Source: Terriglobia bacterium | GTDB taxonomy: Bacteria > Acidobacteriota > Terriglobia > Bryobacterales > Bryobacteraceae | Length of the DNA: 43,942 bases | Direction: 5' to 3' | Assembly (NCBI GenBank): GCA_020073265.1 | Contig: JAIQFN010000048.1 | Location: forward strand, 1-43,942 | Shown: positions 3,262-43,616 of the stretch, one piece after another | Layout: each line of letters starts with the position of its first letter | Position numbering within the stretch: the first letter of the stretch is position 1 | Translations under genes and position numbers: made by a program | Notes under the pieces: generated by a model | Databases searched by the model: none | What the model was told of the DNA's origin: nothing | What the model saw: the letters and a program-made list of their open reading frames with translations, nothing else

Positions 3262-4080
3262 TTGAACGGTTCGTTATCAGAAAGAAATGTCATTGATCCG
3301 AAGCTTGTCGTCGAGACATCCATGCTCACCCGCCGATTCGGTGCCTTCACCGCTGTCGACAGCGTCTCCTTTTATGTGCGGGCGGGTGAGATATTCGGTC
3401 TCATCGGGCCGAACGGTGCTGGCAAGACCACTCTTGTCAAGATGTTGACGACGATGCTCCCGCCGAGTTCGGGGCAGGGTCTGGTCGCCGGATTCGATAT
3501 CGCTAAACAGCCGGCACAGGTGCGCAAGCGCATCGGTTACGTGCCGCAGCTCCTGTCCGCGGACCGCGAACTGACCGGATACGAGAACCTTCTCCTCTCT
3601 TCGCGCCTTTATCTGATTCCCGCCGCCGAACGCGAAAAGAAGATCGAGCTCGCCCTTAACATGATGGGACTTACGGAGGTGCGCGACCGTCTCGCGCGCG
3701 ATTATTCGGGAGGCATGCTGCGCCGCCTCGAAATCGCACAAAGCACGATGCACCAACCGGCGATCCTCTTCCTCGACGAGCCGACCGTGGGCCTCGATCC
3801 CGACGGGCGCAATACTGTTTGGGACCACGTCCGTTCGCTACGTCAGCAAACCGGAGCCGCGATTGTCATGACGACGCATTACATGGATGAGGCTGAGGAG
3901 CTGTGCGACCGCGTTGCGGTGATGCACAATGCGCGCTTTGCGGCAATCGGCACGCCGAAGGAGCTCTGCGCGCTCGTCGGTCCGCAGGCCACGCTCGACG
4001 ATGTCTTCGTCGCGCTGACCGGTCATGAGGTGAAGAAAGGAGATGAGCACGATGCAGGGCGCCCCAGCCTTAACCGGTGA
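3262..4080 (+). CDS. ABC transporter ATP-binding protein, DrrA/NodI-like
   Basis: This is the cytoplasmic ATPase of an ABC-2-type exporter of unknown substrate. In the 272-residue frame, Walker A is GPNGAGKTT (49-57), the Q-loop region is GYVPQ, the signature is YSGGM (148-152), Walker B is ILFLDEP (168-174), and the H-loop is TTHYMDEAEELCDR. This order and the short C-terminal tail fit the DrrA/NodI exporter group. The listed start is TTG at 3262; ATG at 3322 (residue 21), just before the conserved LTRRFGAFTAVD strand, is a good alternative. The frame overlaps the permease gene, as is usual for coupled exporter pairs. The pair lies between the two cupin-DUF2945 repeats and may have arrived separately. 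Confidence 0.9.
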   Translation: MNGSLSERNVIDPKLVVETSMLTRRFGAFTAVDSVSFYVRAGEIFGLIGPNGAGKTTLVKMLTTMLPPSSGQGLVAGFDIAKQPAQVRKRIGYVPQLLSADRELTGYENLLLSSRLYLIPAAEREKKIELALNMMGLTEVRDRLARDYSGGMLRRLEIAQSTMHQPAILFLDEPTVGLDPDGRNTVWDHVRSLRQQTGAAIVMTTHYMDEAEELCDRVAVMHNARFAAIGTPKELCALVGPQATLDDVFVALTGHEVKKGDEHDAGRPSLNR

Positions 4081-4876
4081 ACCGGACAGACGTTTTGTTT
4101 ACACTGCGCGTGATTACGCGACCCACATCATGGCCGTCGCAGACGCGGAAATTCGCAAATTGCGCCACGATCCCTGGGAACTAGTGAGCCGCGCCGTCCA
4201 ACCGATCCTCTGGCTCGTGCTGTTCGGCGAAGTCATGGCGCAGGTCCGCGGACTTTCGTCGGACTCGCAACGATATTTGGATTTTCTTGCACCGGGTATT
4301 CTGGCGCAGAGCGTCTTGTTTGTGGCCATCTTTTACGGAATATCGGCCATTTGGGAGCGCGATCTCGGGGTGCTTCATCGCTACATGGTCAGCCCGGCGC
4401 CACGCAGCGCGCTTGTGATCGGCAAGGCCCTGTCCTCCAGCATCCGCGGCCTGTCGCAGGCGCTCGTGATCTACTTTTGCGCGGCCCTGATGGGCGTGGC
4501 CCTTAACTTTGATCCGGCTCATATCATCGTTGTCGTGCTCCTGATTGTCATCGGTTCGGGCCTGTTTTCGACGTTTTCGCTGATCATCGCCTGCATTGTC
4601 AAAACCCGTGAGCGTTTCATGGGCATTGGGCAGGTCCTGACCATGCCGATTTTCTTCGCCAGCAACGCCATCTATCCTATAAGCCTGATGCCTGGCTGGC
4701 TTAAGACGGTTTCATCGCTCAATCCGCTCACCTATGAGGTTGACGGTCTGCGCGCGATGATGCTCAAGGGCGGCGTGAGCAGCTTCGGTATCGCCACCGA
4801 CTTTTCGGTATTGCTCGCCTGCGCTGCGATCGTTACGATGGTTGCCACTGCGATGTACCCGCGCATGACACGGTGA
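4052..4876 (+). CDS. ABC-2 type permease, DrrB/NodJ-like
   Basis: This is the membrane partner of the preceding ATPase. About six hydrophobic segments are visible, starting with IQ-LWLVLFGEVMAQV and ending near the C-terminus. The ABC-2 signature is present: LAPGILAQSVLF, a central RERFMGIGQVLTMPIFFASNAIYP, and LNPLTYEVDGLR. I chose ATG 4052 because AAAGGAG (4036-4042) sits nine bases upstream; ATG 4043 abuts that site. From 4052 the protein is 274 residues. It overlaps the ATPase frame by 29 bases, consistent with translational coupling. The substrate may be a drug, lipid or polysaccharide; nothing in the sequence decides this. Confidence 0.88.
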   Translation: MQGAPALTGEPDRRFVYTARDYATHIMAVADAEIRKLRHDPWELVSRAVQPILWLVLFGEVMAQVRGLSSDSQRYLDFLAPGILAQSVLFVAIFYGISAIWERDLGVLHRYMVSPAPRSALVIGKALSSSIRGLSQALVIYFCAALMGVALNFDPAHIIVVVLLIVIGSGLFSTFSLIIACIVKTRERFMGIGQVLTMPIFFASNAIYPISLMPGWLKTVSSLNPLTYEVDGLRAMMLKGGVSSFGIATDFSVLLACAAIVTMVATAMYPRMTR

Positions 4877-4932
4877 CGGCTTTATAGCCTTCTCACGCGC
4901 GTGGATTGCCACCACGGCCTCTTACGATTAGC

Positions 4933-5220
4933 CGATCCGAAGGGCGCTGGCAGCCTGGGCATACAGCAAAGACGCTCGCCAAATATCCCGACCTCCGCGT
5001 CGTCCTGATCGTTATGAAGGCTGGCGGGCGCTTGGAAAACATCGAGCCGAGGGGCGTATCTCAGTCCAGACTCTCGACGGACGAATCCGGTTCAATACAG
5101 CCAACGGTCCATAGAGCTTGCGGCTGGCCAAATGCTAACGCTAGAACGCAGTATTCCTCATGACGTTGAAAGCGCGGCTGACAGCGCTTTTCTCCTGACC
5201 ATTGCTTGGCCGCATGGATC
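4933..5220 (+). pseudogene. Degraded second copy of the cupin gene
   Basis: This aligns with 2395-2690 of the intact cupin gene but lacks the first third, including the start. One A is missing from the AAAAA run (near 5037) and one G near 5103, so the frame is shifted twice. SEGRWQ-GHTAKTLAKYPDLRVVLIVMKAGGRLE is still readable before the first shift, and the final strand (FLLTIAW) survives in another frame. It is non-functional and marks the duplicated module. Confidence 0.85.
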
Positions 5221-5244
5221 TCCCGCTCGGTAGCGACGCAAGAG

Positions 5245-5451
5245 ATGGCCAAGACGTTCAAACCCGGCGATCATGTAGCCTGGAATTCGGAAGCAGGCCG
5301 AGTCAGCGGCACTGTCATAAAGAAAGTGTTTTCCGACGTGAAATTCAAGGGCTACACCCACCACGCCACCAAAGAGGAGCCCCAGTATTTCATCGAAAGC
5401 GATAAAACCGATCACGTCGCAATTCACAAAGCTCAGCACTTCGGCTTTTGA
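5245..5451 (+). CDS. DUF2945-like protein, second copy with shifted C-terminus
   Basis: The 68-residue frame from ATG 5245 keeps the whole conserved DUF2945 core (FKPGDHVAWNSEAGRVSGTV to YFIESDKTDHVAIHKA). A one-base deletion near 5432 relative to the first copy replaces the basic tail with QHFGF and an early stop. Upstream there is only the decayed cupin copy, but GCAAGAG before the ATG could act as a weak ribosome site. Most differences from copy 1 in the core are synonymous or conservative, so the product may still fold. Confidence 0.6.
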   Translation: MAKTFKPGDHVAWNSEAGRVSGTVIKKVFSDVKFKGYTHHATKEEPQYFIESDKTDHVAIHKAQHFGF

Positions 5452-5656
5452 AATCATCGGCCCGAAAGAACCCGACGGGAACATCTCGAAAACCAAGAAC
5501 AAAAACTTGAGGAGGTGAGCCTGCCGGACCGAGGTCACACAGGTTGAGTTTGCCAAACGCTGCTGATTTTCTCGGGCCTGGCAATTTAAGCTCCGGCAGG
5601 GATTCCGTCGAGATGTTGCGAGGCTCGAAGGCGAGAGGAATAATGGGAGGAGGCGT

Positions 5657-5920
5657 ATGGATATTCTCGACTCAATCGCGATCTTGATTCCGTGTGTCGT
5701 CTGCGGCGGGCGTTACGAGGTGACTCTTAAACAGGTGGCACTCTCACAGAAGATGATGCACGATGGATGCCCGGTCCATGATGAAAGGGAATGCCCTCCC
5801 CTGTATTATGCTCCGCTGATCGACCGCCAATTGGCCCAGGACTTTCGGGAACTCTGGGCACGCCTCGAACAGGAAGCGCAGGCGGCAGGCGGCGAATTGA
5901 GACTGCACGGCACATTGTAA
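5657..5920 (+). CDS. Small Cys-containing hypothetical protein
   Basis: This 87-residue protein starts at ATG 5657 with GGGAGGAGG upstream, an excellent ribosome site. The N-terminus is hydrophobic and leads into PCVVCGGRYEV, followed by DGCPVHDERECPP. Together these give a CxxC plus two further Cys and a His, a pattern that could bind a metal. The second half is a predicted helix (DFRELWARLEQEAQAAGGE). I do not recognise the family. It lies between the DUF2945 copy and another cupin gene on the same strand. Confidence 0.6.
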   Translation: MDILDSIAILIPCVVCGGRYEVTLKQVALSQKMMHDGCPVHDERECPPLYYAPLIDRQLAQDFRELWARLEQEAQAAGGELRLHGTL

Positions 5921-5941
5921 TTGAGCGGAAAGATTCCGAGT

Positions 5942-6289
5942 ATGGACTTGCAAAAAGGACAGAGCAAGGCAGAAATGCCTGCCGCAGAAGTCATCGGTAT
6001 CGCAGGCCTGGTGAGTTATCAGGACGGGTCCGTTATCAGCCGAACACTGCTCAAACGAACGACCGGTACGGTCACACTGTTCGCCTTCGACGAGGGCGAA
6101 GGGCTCAGCGAACATTCTGCGGCATTTGATGCATTGGTACACGTTCTGGAGGGCGAAGCGGACATCACGATTTCCGGCAAGATGCTGCGTATTCACGCCA
6201 CCGAGGCGGTGCTCCTGCCGGCGAACCAGCCACATGCGGTCAAGGCGATCACCAGGTTCAAGATGCTGTTAATAATGATCCGATCCTGA
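5942..6289 (+). CDS. Cupin-domain protein (quercetinase-like fold)
   Basis: This is a 115-residue single-domain cupin. ATG 5942 is preferred over a TTG at 5921 because family members begin MDLQKGQSKAE. Cupin motif 1 is EGEGLSEHSAAFDALVHVLEGEADI, and motif 2 is AVLLPANQPHAVKAI. The His residues present could bind one metal, but the substrate is unknown. It is unrelated in detail to the cupin at 2293, so the island carries two different cupin types. The preceding gene ends about 20 bases upstream, so cotranscription is likely. Confidence 0.75.
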   Translation: MDLQKGQSKAEMPAAEVIGIAGLVSYQDGSVISRTLLKRTTGTVTLFAFDEGEGLSEHSAAFDALVHVLEGEADITISGKMLRIHATEAVLLPANQPHAVKAITRFKMLLIMIRS

Positions 6290-6446
6290 CCAGAGCACCG
6301 ATATCAGTTGCTCTGCGCAGGGACAGCCTAGCTTTTCCCAGTTTCCTCCGGAAATCGTGGAAGGCAAGCGCATCGGGCAACAGGGCGGATCAGCGGAGTG
6401 AATTCATGATGCTGTCGAGCAAAGGGGTGAGCTCAATATAGCGGCG

Positions 6447-7067
6447 TCAATCACTGTCGATCTGAGCGGGAGCGCTCCAGAACGGATATGGCAGTCCTGC
6501 GAGCCGATTGATCGCGAGAGCCTGGGCAACGAGCAGGAACACCGCCACCTCGATAATGGCCAGTTCGCTCGGTTTCGAAATAATTCCGAGGGAAACGATC
6601 AGCGTTGTCGCGCCGGCCGGCGGATGGCTAACGTCGAGAAGAACCATGAACGCGCCTGTCGCTGAGAGTGAAAGAGCCGCTGCCAGCACTCTTGGCCAGA
6701 AGATTCCCGGATGCTCTCCGAATGGCAGTGCGCCGGCGCCGGTGACAGCAAATGCCGCATAACCGCAGACGAGGCCAATAACATGGCCAATGATAGTATT
6801 TCGCGGACTCGACGTCCTTCCAAGAGGGGTAAAGAACAGAAGATATGCCGTGGGTCCGAGTGAGGGGAAGACAAAGGGGTTCCGGCTCACGAGCGCGAGA
6901 ACCGCTAACAGGCCGATGGTGACGAACCCGTTCACAAACACGTAGAGAGAGTGAACAAGTCGCGGCGGAAAGTGGAGCAACAGCCAGTCGAGTCTTAATT
7001 TTCGGAAGAACGAAACGACATGATCGGCGCTCGCCTCTTGCTGCGCGAAAGAATCGCGGTTCTGCAT
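6447..7067 (-). CDS. HPP-family integral membrane protein
   Basis: This 206-residue protein has an N-terminal cytosolic stretch and four to five hydrophobic segments. The signature FPSLGPTAYLLFF and the SHPPAGATTLIVSLG motif that names the HPP family are both present. Some HPP proteins have been linked to nitrite transport in cyanobacteria and plastids; whether this one transports an anion is unknown. ATG 7067 overlaps the TGA of the upstream oxidoreductase gene by one base (TGATG), which indicates coupled translation. A stray copy of its last 20 codons lies at 3001-3081. Confidence 0.85.
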   Translation of the reverse strand: MQNRDSFAQQEASADHVVSFFRKLRLDWLLLHFPPRLVHSLYVFVNGFVTIGLLAVLALVSRNPFVFPSLGPTAYLLFFTPLGRTSSPRNTIIGHVIGLVCGYAAFAVTGAGALPFGEHPGIFWPRVLAAALSLSATGAFMVLLDVSHPPAGATTLIVSLGIISKPSELAIIEVAVFLLVAQALAINRLAGLPYPFWSAPAQIDSD

Positions 7068-8734
7068 CAAATATTCGGCAGCAGGTCGAAATACTCATCG
7101 TCTTCGTTTTTGCCGCCTTCTCCTTTGCCAAGCGATTTTTCCGATGCGATGAATTCTATCCGCTCGATCCACTTGACCATCTTGTAGCCAAGCTGGTTTT
7201 CCACTCGCAGCCGCAGAGGTGCCCCGTACACCTCCGAAAGCGGTTGCCCGTTCATTCTTGAAGCCAGCAGACATTGGGGCTTTTGCACGTTCTCCAGGCT
7301 CTGGGTATCGTAATAGGGTCCGCCATAAAGAGCTTCGCCGAAGGAGAAGAAAGCGACGACTTTCGCTTCCGCTTTCGGCTGCACGAGATCAATCAGCTGC
7401 TGCATAGGAATCCCGCCCCACTTGGCGATGCCACTCCACCCCTGGATGCAATGATGCATCGTGATGTGTTCAACCTCACCCAGGCGCTCCAAATCGGCGA
7501 TAGAAAGCTCCACCGGATTATTGACCAGCCCTCCCACCTTCAACCGGAAACTGTCAAATCCACTTTCGGCGAGGTGCTTCCAGTCGTCGCGGATCGGCAT
7601 CTTTCCATTCGGCCAGAAGTAAGGAGAGATTTCGTCCTCCGCATACCTCTGCTGTGGCAACAGCCGGTTCAGCGTAAGAAGCTGCATGGGATACGTCACC
7701 GACTTCAGGGCATGTTGCAGTCCCCGCGGATGGTTCCAGGAAATGTAGTGCGCCACGATCCACGAGAGCACGACGACACCAATTCCAATGAACCCCAAGT
7801 ACATTCCGGCAGGGTTCTGATCGTCGGTGCCCATCACAATGTGATTCATATTGCGCGCGAAACCCGTCATCACGATCAGGGTCACGTGCACGACCAAAAA
7901 TGCAAGGAAACTGAACATTGTCAGGAAATGGATAGAACGGGCGGATTGCCGTCCCCCGAATATCCGCGCATACCAAGGAAACCTGTTGACCACCGCCGGA
8001 GACATCGCGATCCCGGTCGCTATCGCGAGCACTCCGAATACAAACACGACCGTGAAATAGGCGATCTGTTGCAGTGCATTGTAGCCATAGAACCCGTTTG
8101 GCTCCGGTGGCAAATGAAATGTCGCGTAGTGCACGAAGGTATTCCATGCCTGCAGGAGAACCAGCGGAGAAGCAGGCACTATGCGTTTCCACTGTTCCGT
8201 TGTGAAGAGCATGACGATAAAAACGATGCCTGTGGCAATGAAACCGTGCACATCAATGAAATGCCACACTCGGGCAAGACCAATCGTGTGGCGGTAGCCT
8301 GGCGTGCCAACGAGAGGCGAGATGTAGCGCGCATCATCTTTCGCGGTCCAGATACGGTCCCGCGGAACTCTCACGGGCGTACACCGAATCCATTCGCTCC
8401 CCGGTGTGCAGCCGTCATTGAAATAAAGACGAGGATGGTCCATCAGGATCGACAGCCCGCTACGGATCAGGATCATCACAAAAAGAAAATTGAAGAAGTG
8501 GCAGTAGCGTACCCATACGGGAAAGCCATGCGGTCCTGCGAAGTTGTTGGGGTATATCTGGGGAATAGCCGGAACAGGCGGCATTCCCGTTACTGCGACC
8601 TCGATCCAGGCCGCTGCAATTAACGCCACGATTGCAACGGCGACGCCGATAAGGATTGATGGCCGAATCCAGATCCTAAACCGACGATCGGGCGGATAGT
8701 GAACAGCTCGGTGTGCTGCATCGAATGCAATCAT
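7067..8734 (-). CDS. Cytochrome b561-molybdopterin oxidoreductase fusion
   Basis: This 555-residue two-part protein starts at ATG 8734; AAAGGAG lies upstream, although with wide spacing. The N-terminal half has several membrane segments with His pairs typical of di-haem b561/formate-dehydrogenase-type cytochromes (RYCHFFNFLF, RVWHFIDVHGF, RSIHFLTMFSFL). The C-terminal 200 residues are a sulfite-oxidase-type molybdopterin domain with the cofactor Cys in HHCIQGWSGIAKWGG and a closing LGYKMVKWIERIEF. The fold would place the molybdenum site next to a quinone-linked cytochrome, so electrons could go directly to or from the membrane pool. The substrate is unknown. It forms an operon with the HPP gene. 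MsrPQ, two kb away, solves the same problem with two separate genes. Confidence 0.85.
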   Translation of the reverse strand: MIAFDAAHRAVHYPPDRRFRIWIRPSILIGVAVAIVALIAAAWIEVAVTGMPPVPAIPQIYPNNFAGPHGFPVWVRYCHFFNFLFVMILIRSGLSILMDHPRLYFNDGCTPGSEWIRCTPVRVPRDRIWTAKDDARYISPLVGTPGYRHTIGLARVWHFIDVHGFIATGIVFIVMLFTTEQWKRIVPASPLVLLQAWNTFVHYATFHLPPEPNGFYGYNALQQIAYFTVVFVFGVLAIATGIAMSPAVVNRFPWYARIFGGRQSARSIHFLTMFSFLAFLVVHVTLIVMTGFARNMNHIVMGTDDQNPAGMYLGFIGIGVVVLSWIVAHYISWNHPRGLQHALKSVTYPMQLLTLNRLLPQQRYAEDEISPYFWPNGKMPIRDDWKHLAESGFDSFRLKVGGLVNNPVELSIADLERLGEVEHITMHHCIQGWSGIAKWGGIPMQQLIDLVQPKAEAKVVAFFSFGEALYGGPYYDTQSLENVQKPQCLLASRMNGQPLSEVYGAPLRLRVENQLGYKMVKWIERIEFIASEKSLGKGEGGKNEDDEYFDLLPNI

Positions 8735-23081: not shown

Positions 23082-24223
23082 CAGCTCTTCAGCAGTTGCC
23101 GCGCGATCACCATGCGCTGGATCTCGCTGGTCCCTTCCCCGATGGTGCACAGCTTGACGTCGCGATAGAATTTCTCGACCGGATAATCTTTGGTGAACCC
23201 GTAGCCGCCGTGGATCTGGACCGCTTCGTTTGCAACGCGCACCGCAACCTCGGAAGCGAACAGCTTGGCCATGGACGATTCCTTGGTGACGCGCTCGCCC
23301 TGGTCCTTCATCCACGCGGCGCGATAGTTGAGCAGGCGCGCGGCGTCGATCTCGGTGGCCATGTCGGCCAGCTTGTTCTGGATCGCCTGAAACTCCGAGA
23401 TCGGCCGGCCGAATTGTTTGCGCTGCTTGGAATACTTGAGCGCCGCTTCGTAAGCGCCTTGCGCGGTGCCGACCGAAAGCGCCGCAATCGAGATGCGCCC
23501 GCCGTCCAGAACGCGCAGGCTGTCGATGAATCCTTCGCCCTGCTTGCCGAGCACTTGCGATTCAGGCAGCCGGCAATCGGTGAAGAGGACCTCGCCGGTG
23601 GCGCTGGCGCGCATCCCCATTTTGTTTTCTTTCTTGCCGACGTGATAGCCGGGGATGCCGCGTTCGAGAATGAACGCCGAGATGCCGTGATGCGATGCCG
23701 CGCGATTGGTGACGGCCATGGCGACGCAGACGTCGGCGTACTGGGCGTTGGTGGTGAAAGTCTTTCCGCCGTTCAGCACCCAGCAAGCGCCGTCCTTCAC
23801 CGCTCGGGTGCGCGTTCCGGCGGCGTCGGAGCCGGCCTCGGGCTCGGTCAGCGACCAGCACCCGATCCACTCGCCGCTGGCGAGCTTCGGAACGTACTTG
23901 CGGCGCTGCTCCTCTGAGCCGGCGACAAAGATGTGGTTGGTGCACAGCGAGTTGTGCGCGGCCACGATCAGCCCGACCGATGGGTCGACGCGCGAAAGCT
24001 CCTCGATGATGATGGCGTAGTCGATGTAGCCGAGGCCGCCGCCGCCAAGTTCTTCGGGAAAGATCGACCCCAGGAAACCCAGTTCGCCGGCCTTCTTGAT
24101 GGTCTCGAGCGGAAAAGTCTGGTCCTCATCCCACTCGAGAACGTGGGGCGCCATCTCCGCTTCCGCAAAGTCGCGGACGGCCTTGCGAAGCTGTATCTGC
24201 TCTTGCGTGAATTCAAATTCCAT
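23081..24223 (-). CDS. Acyl-CoA dehydrogenase
   Basis: This FAD enzyme introduces a double bond next to the CoA thioester; length is 380 residues, typical. It has an N-terminal helical domain ([24 protein letters not shown]), then the FAD strand [20 protein letters not shown], then a C-terminal domain with [37 protein letters not shown] and [20 protein letters not shown]. The base-Glu region is [17 protein letters not shown]. It heads a tight operon with meaB and mce, suggesting degradation of branched or odd-chain acyl-CoA toward methylmalonyl-CoA. The chain-length preference cannot be read off. Confidence 0.95.
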
Positions 24224-24300
24224 GTGACGTCAAAGTGTGTCGCTCAACTACTAGCATCGCATGACGCGCTATTCAGGCAAATCGGCAACCAAAATCTCGA

Positions 24301-24306
24301 TACAAT
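24301..24306 (+). promoter_or_regulatory. Candidate -10 box for a leaderless transcript
   Basis: TACAAT lies six bases before the GTG start at 24313, so transcription would begin at or next to the start codon. No ribosome site exists in the interval. The -35 is not convincing. Confidence 0.35.
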
Positions 24307-24312
24307 AGGGTT

Positions 24313-24741
24313 GTGTATGTAGCAAGGAATGTTCTGGAAGGACACACGGTTCATGTTCTACCCGGCAAAGGCGGGGTGTGGCTTGTGTCGGACCTGAAGG
24401 GCAACGTTGCCACTTTCCCATCCAGGGCCACCGCGCTCGAGCAAGCGCGGCGGCTGGCGGCGGCCGGCAAGCCGGCGCAAGTAGTTCTGATTGACGAATA
24501 TGGGCAAATTGTGCCAATCGCCCGCTATCGGCTGCCTGACTATCCCAGTCCTCAGCTGGGACGGGATAACGGGGGTTCGGTTTTCGAAGCTGCCGTGAAG
24601 TCCCTGGTCATCGGAGGCTTCTTGGCAGCAGGCGTCGCAGTGCTTGGAGATCTGGTCGCCAGCGTCGATCGTCAGCTGAAGGAAGAGACCGCAAAATCCA
24701 AAGACTCTAGAAAGCGAACCCGGCGGCGACGCGCCGCCTGA
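24313..24741 (+). CDS. DUF2188-like protein with a C-terminal membrane segment
   Basis: This is a 142-residue protein with a GTG start. The N-terminal half follows the DUF2188 pattern: VHVLPGKGGVWLVSDLKGN, then a helix SRATALEQARRLAAAG, then VVLIDEYGQIVPIARY. A linker leads to one hydrophobic segment (AAVKSLVIGGFLAAGVAVLG) and a strongly basic tail (KRTRRRRAA). DUF2188 domains are small and of unknown role. The next gene, a TIR-like protein, starts about 10 bases after its stop, so the two form a likely operon, possibly a membrane-attached regulator and an effector. Confidence 0.65.
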   Translation: MYVARNVLEGHTVHVLPGKGGVWLVSDLKGNVATFPSRATALEQARRLAAAGKPAQVVLIDEYGQIVPIARYRLPDYPSPQLGRDNGGSVFEAAVKSLVIGGFLAAGVAVLGDLVASVDRQLKEETAKSKDSRKRTRRRRAA

Positions 24742-24751
24742 ACGTAACGAT

Positions 24752-25393
24752 GTGCCCTCGCATGCTCGCCCCCGCGTAGACGCTGCTCGCCAAAGGCCCT
24801 CGGTTTTTATCAACTGTCCATTTGATCCTTCGTATCGCCGCATGTTTGATGCGATAGTCTTCGCGGTGATCGCGCTGGGGTTCGAGGCTCGCTGCGCGCT
24901 GGAGCGGGATACCGGCGGACAAGAGCGACTGTACAAGATCCTCGACATCATTCGTCATTGTAAATTTGGAATCCACGATATCTCCTTCATGAGGGTTGAC
25001 CCCAAGATTCGATTGCCTCGCTATAACATGGCATTCGAGCTCGGTGTTTTTCTTGGCTGCTATGAATTCGGCGGACGCCAGCACGCCGCCAAGAGTTGTT
25101 TGATTCTGGATCGTGACCGCTTCCGTTACCGCAAATCGATATCGGATCTAAGCGGTCGAGACATCAAGGAACACAAAGGAGATCCCAAGCAGGCCATCGT
25201 GCGGGTGCGGGATTGGTTAGCTACCGAGTCAGGCCCCGAAACGCTGGTGGGTGGCCGGTTCATTGCCGAGCAGTATGAGAGGTTCCGAAAACAGCTTCCG
25301 CGATTGTGCACCCGGTCAAAGCGTAGGACAAGGGAGCTTACCTTCATCGAATATCGCGGGATAGTCGCGAGTTGGCTTCGGGCAAATTCCTAG
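24752..25393 (+). CDS. TIR-like domain protein, putative nucleotide hydrolase
   Basis: This 213-residue protein starts at GTG 24752, the first start codon in the frame. The fold reads like a TIR/Rossmann domain. A first strand and loop SVFINCPFD (17-25) precede helix FDAIVFAVIALGF, then RCALERD, then a long helix KILDIIRHC. The next strand is KFGIHDIS, followed by PRYNMAFELGVFLG. Glu96 in that last motif aligns by position with the catalytic Glu of NADase-type TIR domains. A C-terminal helical part (FIAEQYERFRKQLP) follows. Relatives are usually annotated only as hypothetical. An NAD- or nucleotide-cleaving defence effector is my inference; a non-catalytic ligand-binding role is also possible. 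Confidence 0.6.
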   Translation: MPSHARPRVDAARQRPSVFINCPFDPSYRRMFDAIVFAVIALGFEARCALERDTGGQERLYKILDIIRHCKFGIHDISFMRVDPKIRLPRYNMAFELGVFLGCYEFGGRQHAAKSCLILDRDRFRYRKSISDLSGRDIKEHKGDPKQAIVRVRDWLATESGPETLVGGRFIAEQYERFRKQLPRLCTRSKRRTRELTFIEYRGIVASWLRANS

Positions 25394-25448
25394 CGGGTTC
25401 GTCGCGAGTGAGTGGCTCGACTCTCGGCAGGTCCGACCCGGCCCGGAG

Positions 25449-26036
25449 TCACCGGCTCAGATCGATGCCGAACTTCTTCAGCTCCTCGGCATAGTAGCGG
25501 CGGTGCAGCAGATCCCATTCCTCGGTGCCTTCGGGGATTTCCTTTTTCTGGGAGCGGATCTTGGTGCGCGCGGCGCGGTCGACTTTTTCCTCCACCGCCA
25601 GCAACTCGGTCATGGAGCGCACGATCTCCAGGCGCACGTCGTTGGGATCCTTCTTCAGCCGAAACTCGCGCGCCTTGCGGAACCCAGCCACCAGCTTGTG
25701 CGAGATATCGTTGATCTTGTCGCGCGACAGCTTCATGTTGTCGCCGGTATCGCGGCCCGACGCGCGGATCACCTTGCGCTGCGAGATGAGGGTGTTCTTG
25801 ATGCGGCGGAACATCTCCTGATAGCTGACGCCCTCGCGCCGCATATAGTCGCTGTATTGGCTCAGCAGTTCCCGTACCTCGTCGTTCAGGCGGTCCTCCA
25901 CCTGCAGCTCATCCTGAATGGTGTTGCTGATCAACTCGATGGCGGTGTTGGGGTCGCTGGTTTCGATGATCTGCGGAGTCATCCGCGCCACGAGTTGCCT
26001 GGACAGGTACGCTATGAATTCTCGGCTCAGCAGCAT
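25449..26036 (-). CDS. DUF507 family protein
   Basis: This 195-residue protein matches the DUF507 pattern: an N-terminal LSREFIAYLSRQLVARM followed by long helices and a C-terminal YYAEELKKFGIDLSR. It is about twice the length of the basic 90-residue unit, and the two halves share a similar start and end plan, suggesting an internal duplication. DUF507 is known mainly from Aquificae and Acidobacteria and has no assigned function. It is the last gene of the yjbQ-DUF2203-DUF507 set, with a 55-base gap that contains an inverted repeat. Confidence 0.8.
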   Translation of the reverse strand: MLLSREFIAYLSRQLVARMTPQIIETSDPNTAIELISNTIQDELQVEDRLNDEVRELLSQYSDYMRREGVSYQEMFRRIKNTLISQRKVIRASGRDTGDNMKLSRDKINDISHKLVAGFRKAREFRLKKDPNDVRLEIVRSMTELLAVEEKVDRAARTKIRSQKKEIPEGTEEWDLLHRRYYAEELKKFGIDLSR

Positions 26037-41466: not shown

Positions 41467-42303
41467 TTACTTCTTCCGAAATTGCCCGTACAACAATTCT
41501 TCCACGAACTCGACGCAATTGAACTCGACGAGCTGCGCGTTTTTCTCCACATGGCGGTAGAGCGGCATGCTCATCTTCCAGGGACGCGTGAACACTTTGG
41601 GATCCTCGATGGTGACTTCGTACAGCATGGTATCGGGGCTGCGCGGCGTGTAGCGCTCCACCACGTGCAAGGCTTCGCTGTGGAAGTTGCCGGCGCGATC
41701 GAACCAGGTCTGGTCGTTCTGGCCGGTGACGTCAACCACCAGCGTGTCGCCCTCCCAGCGTCCATTCGACCATCCCATCCAGCTTTCGGTCTGCGCCTCG
41801 GTGGGTTTGCCCATATTGACGGTGCGGGTGGCGCCGGCGAACTCGTAGCTCATCAAGATGACTTTGGCTGACTGCACGATCTGGAACGGCAACGGCATGT
41901 AGGTGGCGCGGGGCACACCGGGGAGATAACACTTGATCTCGGGGTCGGCGGTCAGCCAATGCTCGGCGTTTTGCTTTTTTTTCGCAGCAGCCCAAGGCTG
42001 GTAGGGAATCTCGTCGCCTTCCACCACGCCCAGGCCGCCCGGGACCGAGCCGACCGCGCCGAACGTCAGCACGGGTGGAGCGGGGATGGGAGCAACTGGA
42101 CCAGGCACGGTCATTAGCGCGGGCCGGGCAGAGTGGGTTTGAATATCCCAATTGGCGGTGTTGAGGGCCTGCCAGATTCCGTTCAAATCGGGATGGCCGT
42201 CGGGGGTGCGCGGCACCCGGTAGGCAGGCTGCGCGGCGGCGGGAATTCCGGCCAACGCAAGGATGGCCGCCAGCAGCATCGAACAGCTAAGGCAGCGTTG
42301 CAT
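41467..42303 (-). CDS. Secreted protein of unknown function, paralogue 2
   Basis: The 278-residue protein has a signal peptide (CSMLLAAILALAGIPAAAQ) and the same RTPDGHPDLNGIW start, followed by GRWEGDTLVVDVTGQND and HVVERYTPRSPDTMLYEVTIEDPKVFTRPWKM. It ends CVEFVEELLYGQFRKK. It is shorter than paralogue 1 and differs most in the middle. The two are a tandem pair in one operon. No catalytic site is recognised. Confidence 0.8.
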   Translation of the reverse strand: MQRCLSCSMLLAAILALAGIPAAAQPAYRVPRTPDGHPDLNGIWQALNTANWDIQTHSARPALMTVPGPVAPIPAPPVLTFGAVGSVPGGLGVVEGDEIPYQPWAAAKKKQNAEHWLTADPEIKCYLPGVPRATYMPLPFQIVQSAKVILMSYEFAGATRTVNMGKPTEAQTESWMGWSNGRWEGDTLVVDVTGQNDQTWFDRAGNFHSEALHVVERYTPRSPDTMLYEVTIEDPKVFTRPWKMSMPLYRHVEKNAQLVEFNCVEFVEELLYGQFRKK

Positions 42304-42527
42304 CGAATCGATTCACTCTGAACCCGGTTCGGTTCATCAGTCAGTATATACCAAGGGTTTTGGAATGAAGCGGATAAAGACGGCTCCGGGGCGAAAGGGA
42401 TGAATCAAACACCTTTACGTAACGCCCACCGGAGGAGTGAGGCGACGAAGCAGTTTTCATCGCGGCCGTGGGTCCGGCGAGAGCATTAAACGTATGAACT
42501 GGTACAGTAGGAGTGAAGGCGGTCAGC

Positions 42528-42953
42528 ATGGCGTTCCAGCCTGACATTCTCGTCACCAGCCCGGATGAACCGGGAGTCACGCTGGTCATCGAAGCCAAGG
42601 TGCACCTGCCCAACCTCGACCGGACTGAGGCAGAACTCAAGCGGTACATGGTTCGCATGCAGTGCCCCATCGGCATGCTTATCACACCCGAGCGCATGTG
42701 GCTGTACCGTGACACCTACGCCACGAGGTTGCCTGACTCGATAAGGCGCGTAGGCGAATACGACATAAAGTCGCTATGGCGCGAACCGCCGCCGACCCAG
42801 GGAACCCAGTTCGAAGCGTTCGTACAGCGCCGTCTCGAAGACCTCGCCAAGACACCAGTGGAAGAACTCCCGGGTGATCTCCGCGACGCTCTGCGAGAGT
42901 ATATCCTGCCCGCAATCGTGGCCGGCGACGTGCGCGCCGCTCACCCCAGATAA
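42528..42953 (+). CDS. PD-(D/E)XK-like nuclease domain protein
   Basis: A 141-residue protein from ATG 42528 (GTG 42513 is also possible) reads MAFQPDILVTSPDEPGVTLVIEAKV. This gives Asp6, then Glu22-x-Lys24 at the spacing of the PD-(D/E)XK active site. The helix KRYMVRMQCPIGMLITPERMWLYRD fits the restriction-endonuclease fold. It is followed 12 bases later by a PIN-like gene, so the two may form a module. Family name and partners are unknown; a nuclease role is inferred from the motif. Confidence 0.6.
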   Translation: MAFQPDILVTSPDEPGVTLVIEAKVHLPNLDRTEAELKRYMVRMQCPIGMLITPERMWLYRDTYATRLPDSIRRVGEYDIKSLWREPPPTQGTQFEAFVQRRLEDLAKTPVEELPGDLRDALREYILPAIVAGDVRAAHPR

Positions 42954-42965
42954 CTCCTAAGAGCA

Positions 42966-43616
42966 GTGTCACACGTCTTCGTAGAAACCAACTGGCTTTT
43001 CGCGTATGCCGCACCGGCACACCACCAAGTCCCCGCGGCAGCGGAACTCCTGGAACGAGCACAGCGCGGCGAATTCTTGCTTCACCTTCCCAACGTCTCC
43101 ATTGGTGAAGCACGGCAGGCTATCCACGCGAAGTGCCAACCACGAACCGAAGCCAACGCCATCCGACGATTCCTTTCCTGGGCAACCCCGGCAGGCAACG
43201 TCACACGCCAGAACTCGAGCATCGCAAGGACCATCCTGGATCAGTATGAGAGCCGCATCCAAGAAGACCTCAACAAACTCGACGACAGCCTCCGGGCACT
43301 CGCCGGCCTCCCTTGTATCGATGTTTTCGGCTTCGATGACGCGATGCTCGGCCACGCCACAACCCTCGCCCTTGGAGGCATCGCGCCCAAACCATTCGAC
43401 CACGCCATACTCGCTGGCATCCTCGTCACGGCACAACGACTCTGGGAAGGCGGGGAACGGCGACTCTCTTTCTGCGAAGCAGACACTGACCTCCAGCCCT
43501 GGGGGCGATACGGTGACCCCAAGCCAGAACTCCGCGCAGCGTACGATCAAGCACACCTCTGGGTTTACGGCGACTTCACCCTCACGCAACCCACACGACG
43601 ACCAGACTTCGAATAA
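42966..43616 (+). CDS. PIN-like nuclease domain protein
   Basis: The 216-residue protein (GTG start) begins SHVFVETNWLFAYAAPAHH, a PIN-type first strand with Glu where Asp is usual. Conserved acids follow at Glu48 (VSIGEARQ), Asp145 (PFDHAILAG) and Asp173/175 (FCEADTDLQPW), which would form the metal centre of an RNase. PIN domains act as toxins or RNA-processing nucleases. No antitoxin-like gene is adjacent; the upstream partner is the PD-(D/E)XK protein. Confidence 0.6.
   Translation: MSHVFVETNWLFAYAAPAHHQVPAAAELLERAQRGEFLLHLPNVSIGEARQAIHAKCQPRTEANAIRRFLSWATPAGNVTRQNSSIARTILDQYESRIQEDLNKLDDSLRALAGLPCIDVFGFDDAMLGHATTLALGGIAPKPFDHAILAGILVTAQRLWEGGERRLSFCEADTDLQPWGRYGDPKPELRAAYDQAHLWVYGDFTLTQPTRRPDFE

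Follow-up and report, generated by a model that had tools for sequence, protein, structure and literature searches.

To our knowledge, the TIR systems CAP12/Pycsar, SPARTA, Thoeris and CBASS either fuse the sensor to the TIR domain or rely on one fixed partner. SAVED, STING or transmembrane receptor domains belong to the CAP12/Pycsar TIR effectors (PF10137; CBASS Cap12 and PycTIR), while SPARTA (short prokaryotic Argonaute TIR-APAZ) is presented in abstracts as a TIR effector that acts together with a sensor on a different protein. We analyzed a window of 43,942 nucleotides, which is one whole contig of a 6.4 Mb genome, and focused on a pair of open reading frames that the initial annotation had placed about 10 bases apart. 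Both frames were found, with the stop of the DUF2188 gene ending at 24741 and the GTG of the TIR-like gene at 24752, leaving a gap of 10 nt. The features of the pair are as follows:

24301 to 24306, plus strand: TACAAT, the proposed -10 box (sequence; promoter scan found 0)
24313 to 24741, plus strand: partner gene encoding a basic DUF2188 protein of 142 aa (open reading frame; GTG start uncertain)
24349 to 24510, plus strand: DUF2188 domain, predicted b-b-b-a-b-b (family match; model m57412b2064a6)
24574 to 24627, plus strand: helix of residues 88-105, at the alignment position of the adapter motif described below, diverged (alignment; model)
24697 to 24738, plus strand: Lys/Arg-rich C-terminal tail of the partner (translation)
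24752 to 25393, plus strand: gene of the putative TIR-like effector, 213 aa (open reading frame; AlphaFold2 model; TIR fold matches)
24800 to 25162, plus strand: predicted TIR-like domain, about residues 17-137 (model secondary structure; hhalign to CAP12-PCTIR)
25019 to 25045, plus strand: putative active-site motif R90-Y-N92-M93-A-F-E96-L-G98 (counterpart of RQNVIFExG; invariance; hhalign)
25184 to 25387, plus strand: C-terminal helical region, residues 145-212 (model helices 145-160, 168-188 and 198-212)

The window protein shares the R-x-N-x3-E-x-G and SD..G motifs and the TIR fold with the CAP12/Pycsar effectors; unlike them, it has a separate small basic partner, a Pfam score below the cut-off and, at 213 aa, no room for an additional receptor domain of the kinds named above. 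SPARTA provides its best PDB fold match, whereas the window pair has no Argonaute or APAZ: the protein ends after the TIR and helical regions, its partner is a DUF2188 protein, and the partners across the family are variable and about 100-140 aa long. Our leading reading, which we hold at even chances, is that the pair forms a two-gene module of immune type in which an abortive-infection TIR NADase is controlled by an exchangeable partner. The readings weighed below overlap, and the probabilities attached to them need not sum to one.

Sequence searches barely recognized the TIR-like protein. Its Pfam match to CAP12-PCTIR_TIR (PF10137) had E=0.19 and 12.2 bits, below the cut-off of 24.7; NCBIfam and PADLOC gave no match, a PDB sequence search returned one chance match to a thioredoxin reductase (E=0.63), and a PDB profile search with alignment A3 of TIR-like proteins returned no TIR. 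An AlphaFold2 model built from a 91-row alignment (the window protein plus 90) reached a pLDDT of 91.1 and a pTM of 0.88, and the top Foldseek matches of this model in the PDB were a SPARTA TIR (E=1.4e-4) and TIR-STING, with a probability of 1.00, followed by NDT and by plant and bacterial TIRs. Only 10 PDB fold matches fell at E<=0.001, and their TM-scores were modest (0.4-0.5 of the query). Among the viral fold matches, the top one was annotated as a CAP12/Pycsar TIR, and NDT was again present. When aligned by hhalign with a profile built on 12 CAP12-PCTIR domains taken from relatives, the TIR-like family scored E=1.6e-4 at a probability of only 51%, with R90, N92, E96 and G98 set on the RQNVIFExG of the CAP12/Pycsar TIRs and SD..G set on its counterpart. 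The model, the fold matches and the profile alignment together bear out the TIR-type topology that the initial annotation had proposed, and the same alignment puts Glu96 on the Glu of the CAP12/Pycsar TIRs, in keeping with its assignment to the glutamate position of NADase TIRs.

The NDT structures among the PDB and viral fold matches raise the alternative that the protein is an NDT-like nucleotide-processing enzyme instead of a NAD-cleaving TIR, which we consider very unlikely. In Pfam there was no match to NDT (PF05014), hhalign against the PF05014 profile returned a probability of 1.0 and E=0.053, against the far lower E-value for CAP12-PCTIR, and the R-x-N-x3-E-x-G and SD..G motifs match the CAP12-PCTIR pattern. 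On the hhalign result this candidate was dropped. The TIR assignment withstood the refuting condition set in the initial annotation, a confident match to an unrelated enzyme.

Glu96 lies within YNMAFELG, and residues N21, D25, R59, D76, R90, N92, M93, E96, G98, S131 and G135 are the same throughout alignment A2, which comprises 96 sequences with the window included. Given that these loci came from two scan patterns, one of which contains the Glu and so biases the alignment toward it, we rechecked the residue in loci found by profile. R90, N92, M93, E96 and G98 were invariant in all 54 uninterrupted profile-found relatives, 40 of them new and 14 from places already seen; Glu96 was kept in 29/29 Poribacteria and 25/25 Acidobacteriota loci of this set, while D25, R59 and G135 varied in one to three of the 25 Acidobacteriota loci. 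Loss of Glu96, which would have spoken against a NADase, was therefore seen in none of the 96 aligned or the 40 new sequences. The starting set of 108 loci contains two identical pairs (L002/L054 and L017/L018), and 11 loci that failed an ORF-length filter were left out of alignments A2 and A3; the filter proved too strict, since at least three of these 11 (L046, L058 and L069) are intact loci that retain the Glu. We also chose to exclude L005 and L097, and A3 was built without five plasmid loci. By prediction, the protein is a TIR-fold enzyme of a CAP12/Pycsar-like branch, most likely a NAD(P)+-cleaving effector with Glu96 as the catalytic residue. The effector chemistry is predicted to be of a known kind, with NAD+ the probable substrate by analogy with the family, and the C-terminal helices of the model offer a possible candidate site for partner binding.

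The DUF2188 identity given to the first protein held, with a Pfam match to PF09954 at E=4.3e-6 and 27.2 bits against a cut-off of 22. DUF2188 had no PDB sequence match, and the partner model (pLDDT 84, pTM 0.67, from 14 sequences) had no PDB fold match at E<=0.001. The initial annotation had also described this protein as membrane-anchored. Residues 98-116 are indeed hydrophobic in the window partner (Kyte-Doolittle 2.18), whereas the corresponding region of the relative L028 reaches 1.12 and four other DUF2188 partners tested have maxima of <=0.82; the AlphaFold2 model moreover splits the stretch into helices 88-105 and 112-141. Membrane anchoring was dropped as a defining feature on these two grounds. 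Besides DUF2188, the window partner has a longer tail that is helical and basic. It carries a net charge of +9, and partners picked by position and length only average +0.154 per residue (n=82), compared to +0.011 for the TIR-like ORFs. Such basic partners fit contact with nucleic acid without proving it, and because the partners are strongly basic and one has an HU-type domain, they may sense nucleic acid. As for expression, TACAAT does sit six bases before the GTG at 24313, where it had been read as the -10 box of a leaderless, tightly started transcript; however, a sigma-70 scan of 24100-25700 returned 0 sites, and the start codon of the DUF2188 gene is uncertain. The leaderless sigma-70 promoter was dropped on the scan.

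Among the small genes beside the TIR-like gene in the 108 loci, we spotted a motif of about 25 residues, like SGTVSxxxIRKAVxxVxxxR, that recurs in many small basic partners and that we call the adapter. A first adapter HMM was trained on 30 upstream seeds, hand-picked by eye and none from Poribacteria, and found 27 of the 30 held-out seeds upstream, 26 of them as the best match of the locus (E 3e-5 to 7.5). Unexpectedly, in ten Poribacteria loci the adapter opened the gene that follows, 723-739 nt from where the TIR-like core begins, and eight of the ten had no candidate ORF upstream. When Poribacteria loci were retrieved by profile, the adapter was downstream in 33/33 cases (E 5e-5 to 6.3), comprising 21 new places and 12 re-fetched. 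In the reverse direction, an HMM trained on Poribacteria was run on the 95 other loci; at E<=10 it gave 40 matches beside the TIR-like gene, spread over 39 loci, against 3 at other sites, and at E<=0.1 it gave 18 against 0, with the adjacent zone making up about 2.5% of the bases. The first HMM detected an adjacent adapter in only 7 of 29 Acidobacteriota loci, one of which (L151) is a training seed re-fetched. In the window partner, A94 and V95 align with the conserved AV of the adapter, and the adapter HMM match was not significant, as 65 of 1000 shuffles scored as high; the match in the nearest relative, L028, was no better. A functional adapter in the window partner is thus suggested by position, while the linkage of DUF2188 to the TIR-like gene at the window is solid.

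Across 84 Poribacteria genomes, an adapter lay within 1 kb downstream of 43 of 44 full-length TIR-like matches (the exception is G079; an in-frame stop interrupts 5 of the 44). Of 80 adapter matches, by contrast, 22 lacked a TIR-like match in the 1 kb upstream of them, although for two of the 22 such a match lies at a distance of about 1 kb on the opposite side. This asymmetry leans toward inhibition, rather than activation, of the TIR-like protein by its partner. It also suits a toxin-antitoxin module, in which a constitutively dangerous NADase would be held by a partner acting purely as antitoxin and the variable domains would be autoregulatory or stabilizing. We rate this as unlikely, if well short of negligible. 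The resemblance to type II systems is plain in the two short adjacent genes, the small basic partner beside the enzyme gene and the rarity of the effector without a partner in Poribacteria, and broken TIR-like copies occur as well. The same asymmetry, however, would also arise if bacteria retained partner genes for some other purpose, and the adapter fusions to CD-NTase and ThsB-TIR described below bring in signaling enzymes that are not usual parts of an antitoxin. No antitoxin family appeared among the Pfam matches of 92 partners. As a separate observation, L220, L221, L229 and L235 hold adapter-partner genes without a TIR-like gene, and upstream of these partners lie large genes that look like R-M methylases by eye. 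An adapter fused to a large region was seen at 8608-9861 of L070 and likewise in the partner of L221; the L070 protein gave no Pfam or PADLOC match and is a candidate for a new sensor.

Closer inspection of the partners revealed that the adapter is joined to several different domains. In Poribacteria it is N-terminal, where it either stands alone or precedes one of several regions: DUF2188, a GIY-YIG-like domain, a CD-NTase, a ThsB-type TIR with a winged helix, an unnamed VGRDxxTGRFIS segment or an unnamed large region. Among seeds outside Poribacteria the adapter is mostly C-terminal, and in L091 it precedes DUF2188 in the upstream gene. No natural fusion of TIR-like protein and adapter was found in the loci examined. 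The CD-NTase fusion of L082 (the same place as L119) matched DncV-like at 3.3e-10 and PADLOC Cyclase at 1.3e-127, and it and the fusions of L136 and L139 keep GS..DxD as judged by eye. This is the likeness to CBASS, from which the window pair differs in having no CD-NTase and in consisting of two genes between opposite-strand genes. The CD-NTase was seen only in Poribacteria relatives and was apparently gained or lost within one clade of their effector tree. On that tree of 29 effectors, partner type (labeled by eye) required 8 changes compared to 14-20 in 300 shuffles, so partner type and effector have largely been inherited together. A Pfam scan of 92 partner ORFs gave 23 DUF2188, 2 GIY-YIG and 1 DncV-like NTase, so that DUF2188 accounts for a minority of this wider set; these ORFs were chosen by position and charge, with four reassigned and L029 dropped by eye, and the set includes 16 partners from plasmid and viral loci, the choice of several having been guided by DUF2188. 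A second effector branch, starting FLNIPYD and grouped by eye (L006, L011, L162, L163, L164, L168 and L175), has partners that begin with a different HTH-like segment, like TPVPTLEEFGxxLGLSKxR; L163 joins this segment to DUF2188 (4.2e-11), and L006 joins it to a domain of HU type (1.2e-11).

DUF2188 linkage was evaluated in 396 Acidobacteriota genomes. Of these, 49 contain DUF2188, with 54 matches in all, and 23 contain the TIR-like profile, at 30 places, a count that may be low because at most 7 first-look candidates were scored per genome. Nine genomes hold both genes, and in eight of them (all except G316) a comparison of positions by hand showed the DUF2188 match preceding the TIR-like match by 54-277 nt, with both on one strand; the remaining 46 of the 54 DUF2188 matches are therefore not beside a TIR-like match. 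The pairing put forward in the initial annotation consequently survives as a conserved linkage but not as a fixed combination, since other partner domains can take the place of DUF2188. That the TIR is kept while the extra domain of its companion changes suggests an immune module with exchangeable inputs. In such a module, the partner would comprise an exchangeable domain for sensing or docking, which at the window is DUF2188, and a helical segment that binds the TIR-like protein. At rest, the partner would hold the TIR-like protein inactive or unassembled; phage infection would perturb the sensor domain, the TIR proteins would then assemble, and NAD+ would be destroyed or turned into a messenger, upon which growth would stop. 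Binding by the partner, its inhibitory action and the anti-phage role are all inferred steps of this scheme. Several observations weigh against it: the Pfam-checked genes around the pair are housekeeping genes, the hhalign probability is low, the adapter is not significant in the window partner or in L028, DUF2188 has no PDB fold match at E<=0.001, no natural TIR-adapter fusion turned up, an adjacent adapter was seen in few Acidobacteriota loci, and even at E<=10 the Poribacteria-trained HMM found one in only 39 of the 95 non-Poribacteria loci.

A broader proposal, which we put at somewhat below even chances, is that one TIR effector family is driven through a short portable adapter peptide joined to many inputs (DUF2188, GIY-YIG-like, CD-NTase and ThsB-TIR, with an HU-type domain in the sister branch), an architecture that would be undescribed. 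A portable adapter of this kind was absent from the libraries searched and, at the level of abstracts, from the literature searched, in which we found neither the pair nor the adapter described and DUF2188 mentioned but never together with TIR. If the proposal is true, a single executioner serves several distinct sensing pathways, among them CBASS and Thoeris. One effector family is seen here with many domains on the same short motif, including the signal enzymes of two known defense systems. Should the adapter truly connect them, this would account for the wiring of new sensors to an old effector, open a way into DUF2188 and provide a sequence tag for finding undiscovered phage sensors.

The defense or signaling role suggested in the initial annotation gains support from the CD-NTase and ThsB-TIR adapter fusions and from relatives that are phage-borne or embedded in Thoeris. 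At 3459-8394 of the viral contig L112, PADLOC and inspection gave the order ThsA-Macro, ThsB, ThsB, DUF2188-like (identified by eye), TIR-like, ThsA-Macro and TIR-TM, with the second ThsA-Macro about 60 nt downstream of the pair, and in L135 the adapter is fused to ThsB_TIR (1.1e-22). The TIR-like gene of L112 may be a signal producer, and the window protein, which also has a TIR domain, could be a Thoeris-like generator of an ADP-ribose-derived messenger for a separate effector. This we regard as improbable: L112 is one locus, and Pfam recognized no ThsA-like gene among the 8 genes neighboring the window pair. The window protein differs from Thoeris in having no match to PADLOC ThsB up to E 10. 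Four further viral loci carry a small gene before a TIR-like gene as moron-like cargo among phage structural genes. The TIR-like gene lies between major head and tail proteins in L109 (2863-3656), between major head and portal genes in L113 (5630-6603), between the tape measure gene and a stretch of major tail protein in L114 (5681-6615), and next to a tape measure gene in L115 (728-1597), where the upstream phrog is the same as in L114. With the window TIR-like protein as query, 50,697 phage records yielded no relative at E<=1e-3. In a comparison meant to gauge defense-island enrichment, PADLOC matched 163 distinct models in genes near the family and 84 in controls (133 versus 131 genes, 19 windows each), counts in which several models fall on one gene and the near set still includes a few of the partner genes; defense matches occurred on both sides, with R-M in the near set and AbiE, CRISPR and ZorD in the control set.

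The TIR-like gene is single-copy in its own genome, absent from 4 of 4 same-genus genomes and present in 8 of 61 genomes of the relatives set, its own counted. Its closest named relative among the matches listed is L028, from a Solibacteraceae bacterium (an Acidobacteriota family), at 66% identity, and the scan confirmed at least 560 relatives. The distribution is patchy: besides the 23 Acidobacteriota genomes of the 396 noted above, relatives occur in 44 of 84 genomes of the phylum of the Poribacteria locus and in 7 of 392 genomes of the phylum to which the Planctomycetaceae record G541 belongs. Among plasmid records, 17 of 72,556 carry a relative. The possibility that the pair is a remnant, non-functional or neutral in the window genome, seems slight: the adapter of the window partner is diverged and same-family copies in G017 and G036 are split over frames or carry stops, whereas the two ORFs at the window are open and the window keeps all 11 invariant positions, the latter by definition as it is part of alignment A2. 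The pair is flanked on the minus strand by acyl-CoA dehydrogenase and MeaB genes on one side and DUF507, DUF2203 and UPF0047 genes on the other, and the 8 neighbors checked by Pfam are housekeeping genes. A clean empty site was sought in the three genomes of the same genus that yielded DUF507 and was rejected; because the acyl-CoA dehydrogenase gene is not within 1.5 kb of DUF507 in these genomes, no insertion boundary could be drawn. Elsewhere in the window, ARAGORN called a 95-nt tRNA-Phe at 42107-42201, with no report from an Rfam scan, which is probably a false positive. Near the contig end, at 42513-43613, lies a second pair of small, adjacent ORFs, the latter of which resembles a PIN-type toxin by eye.
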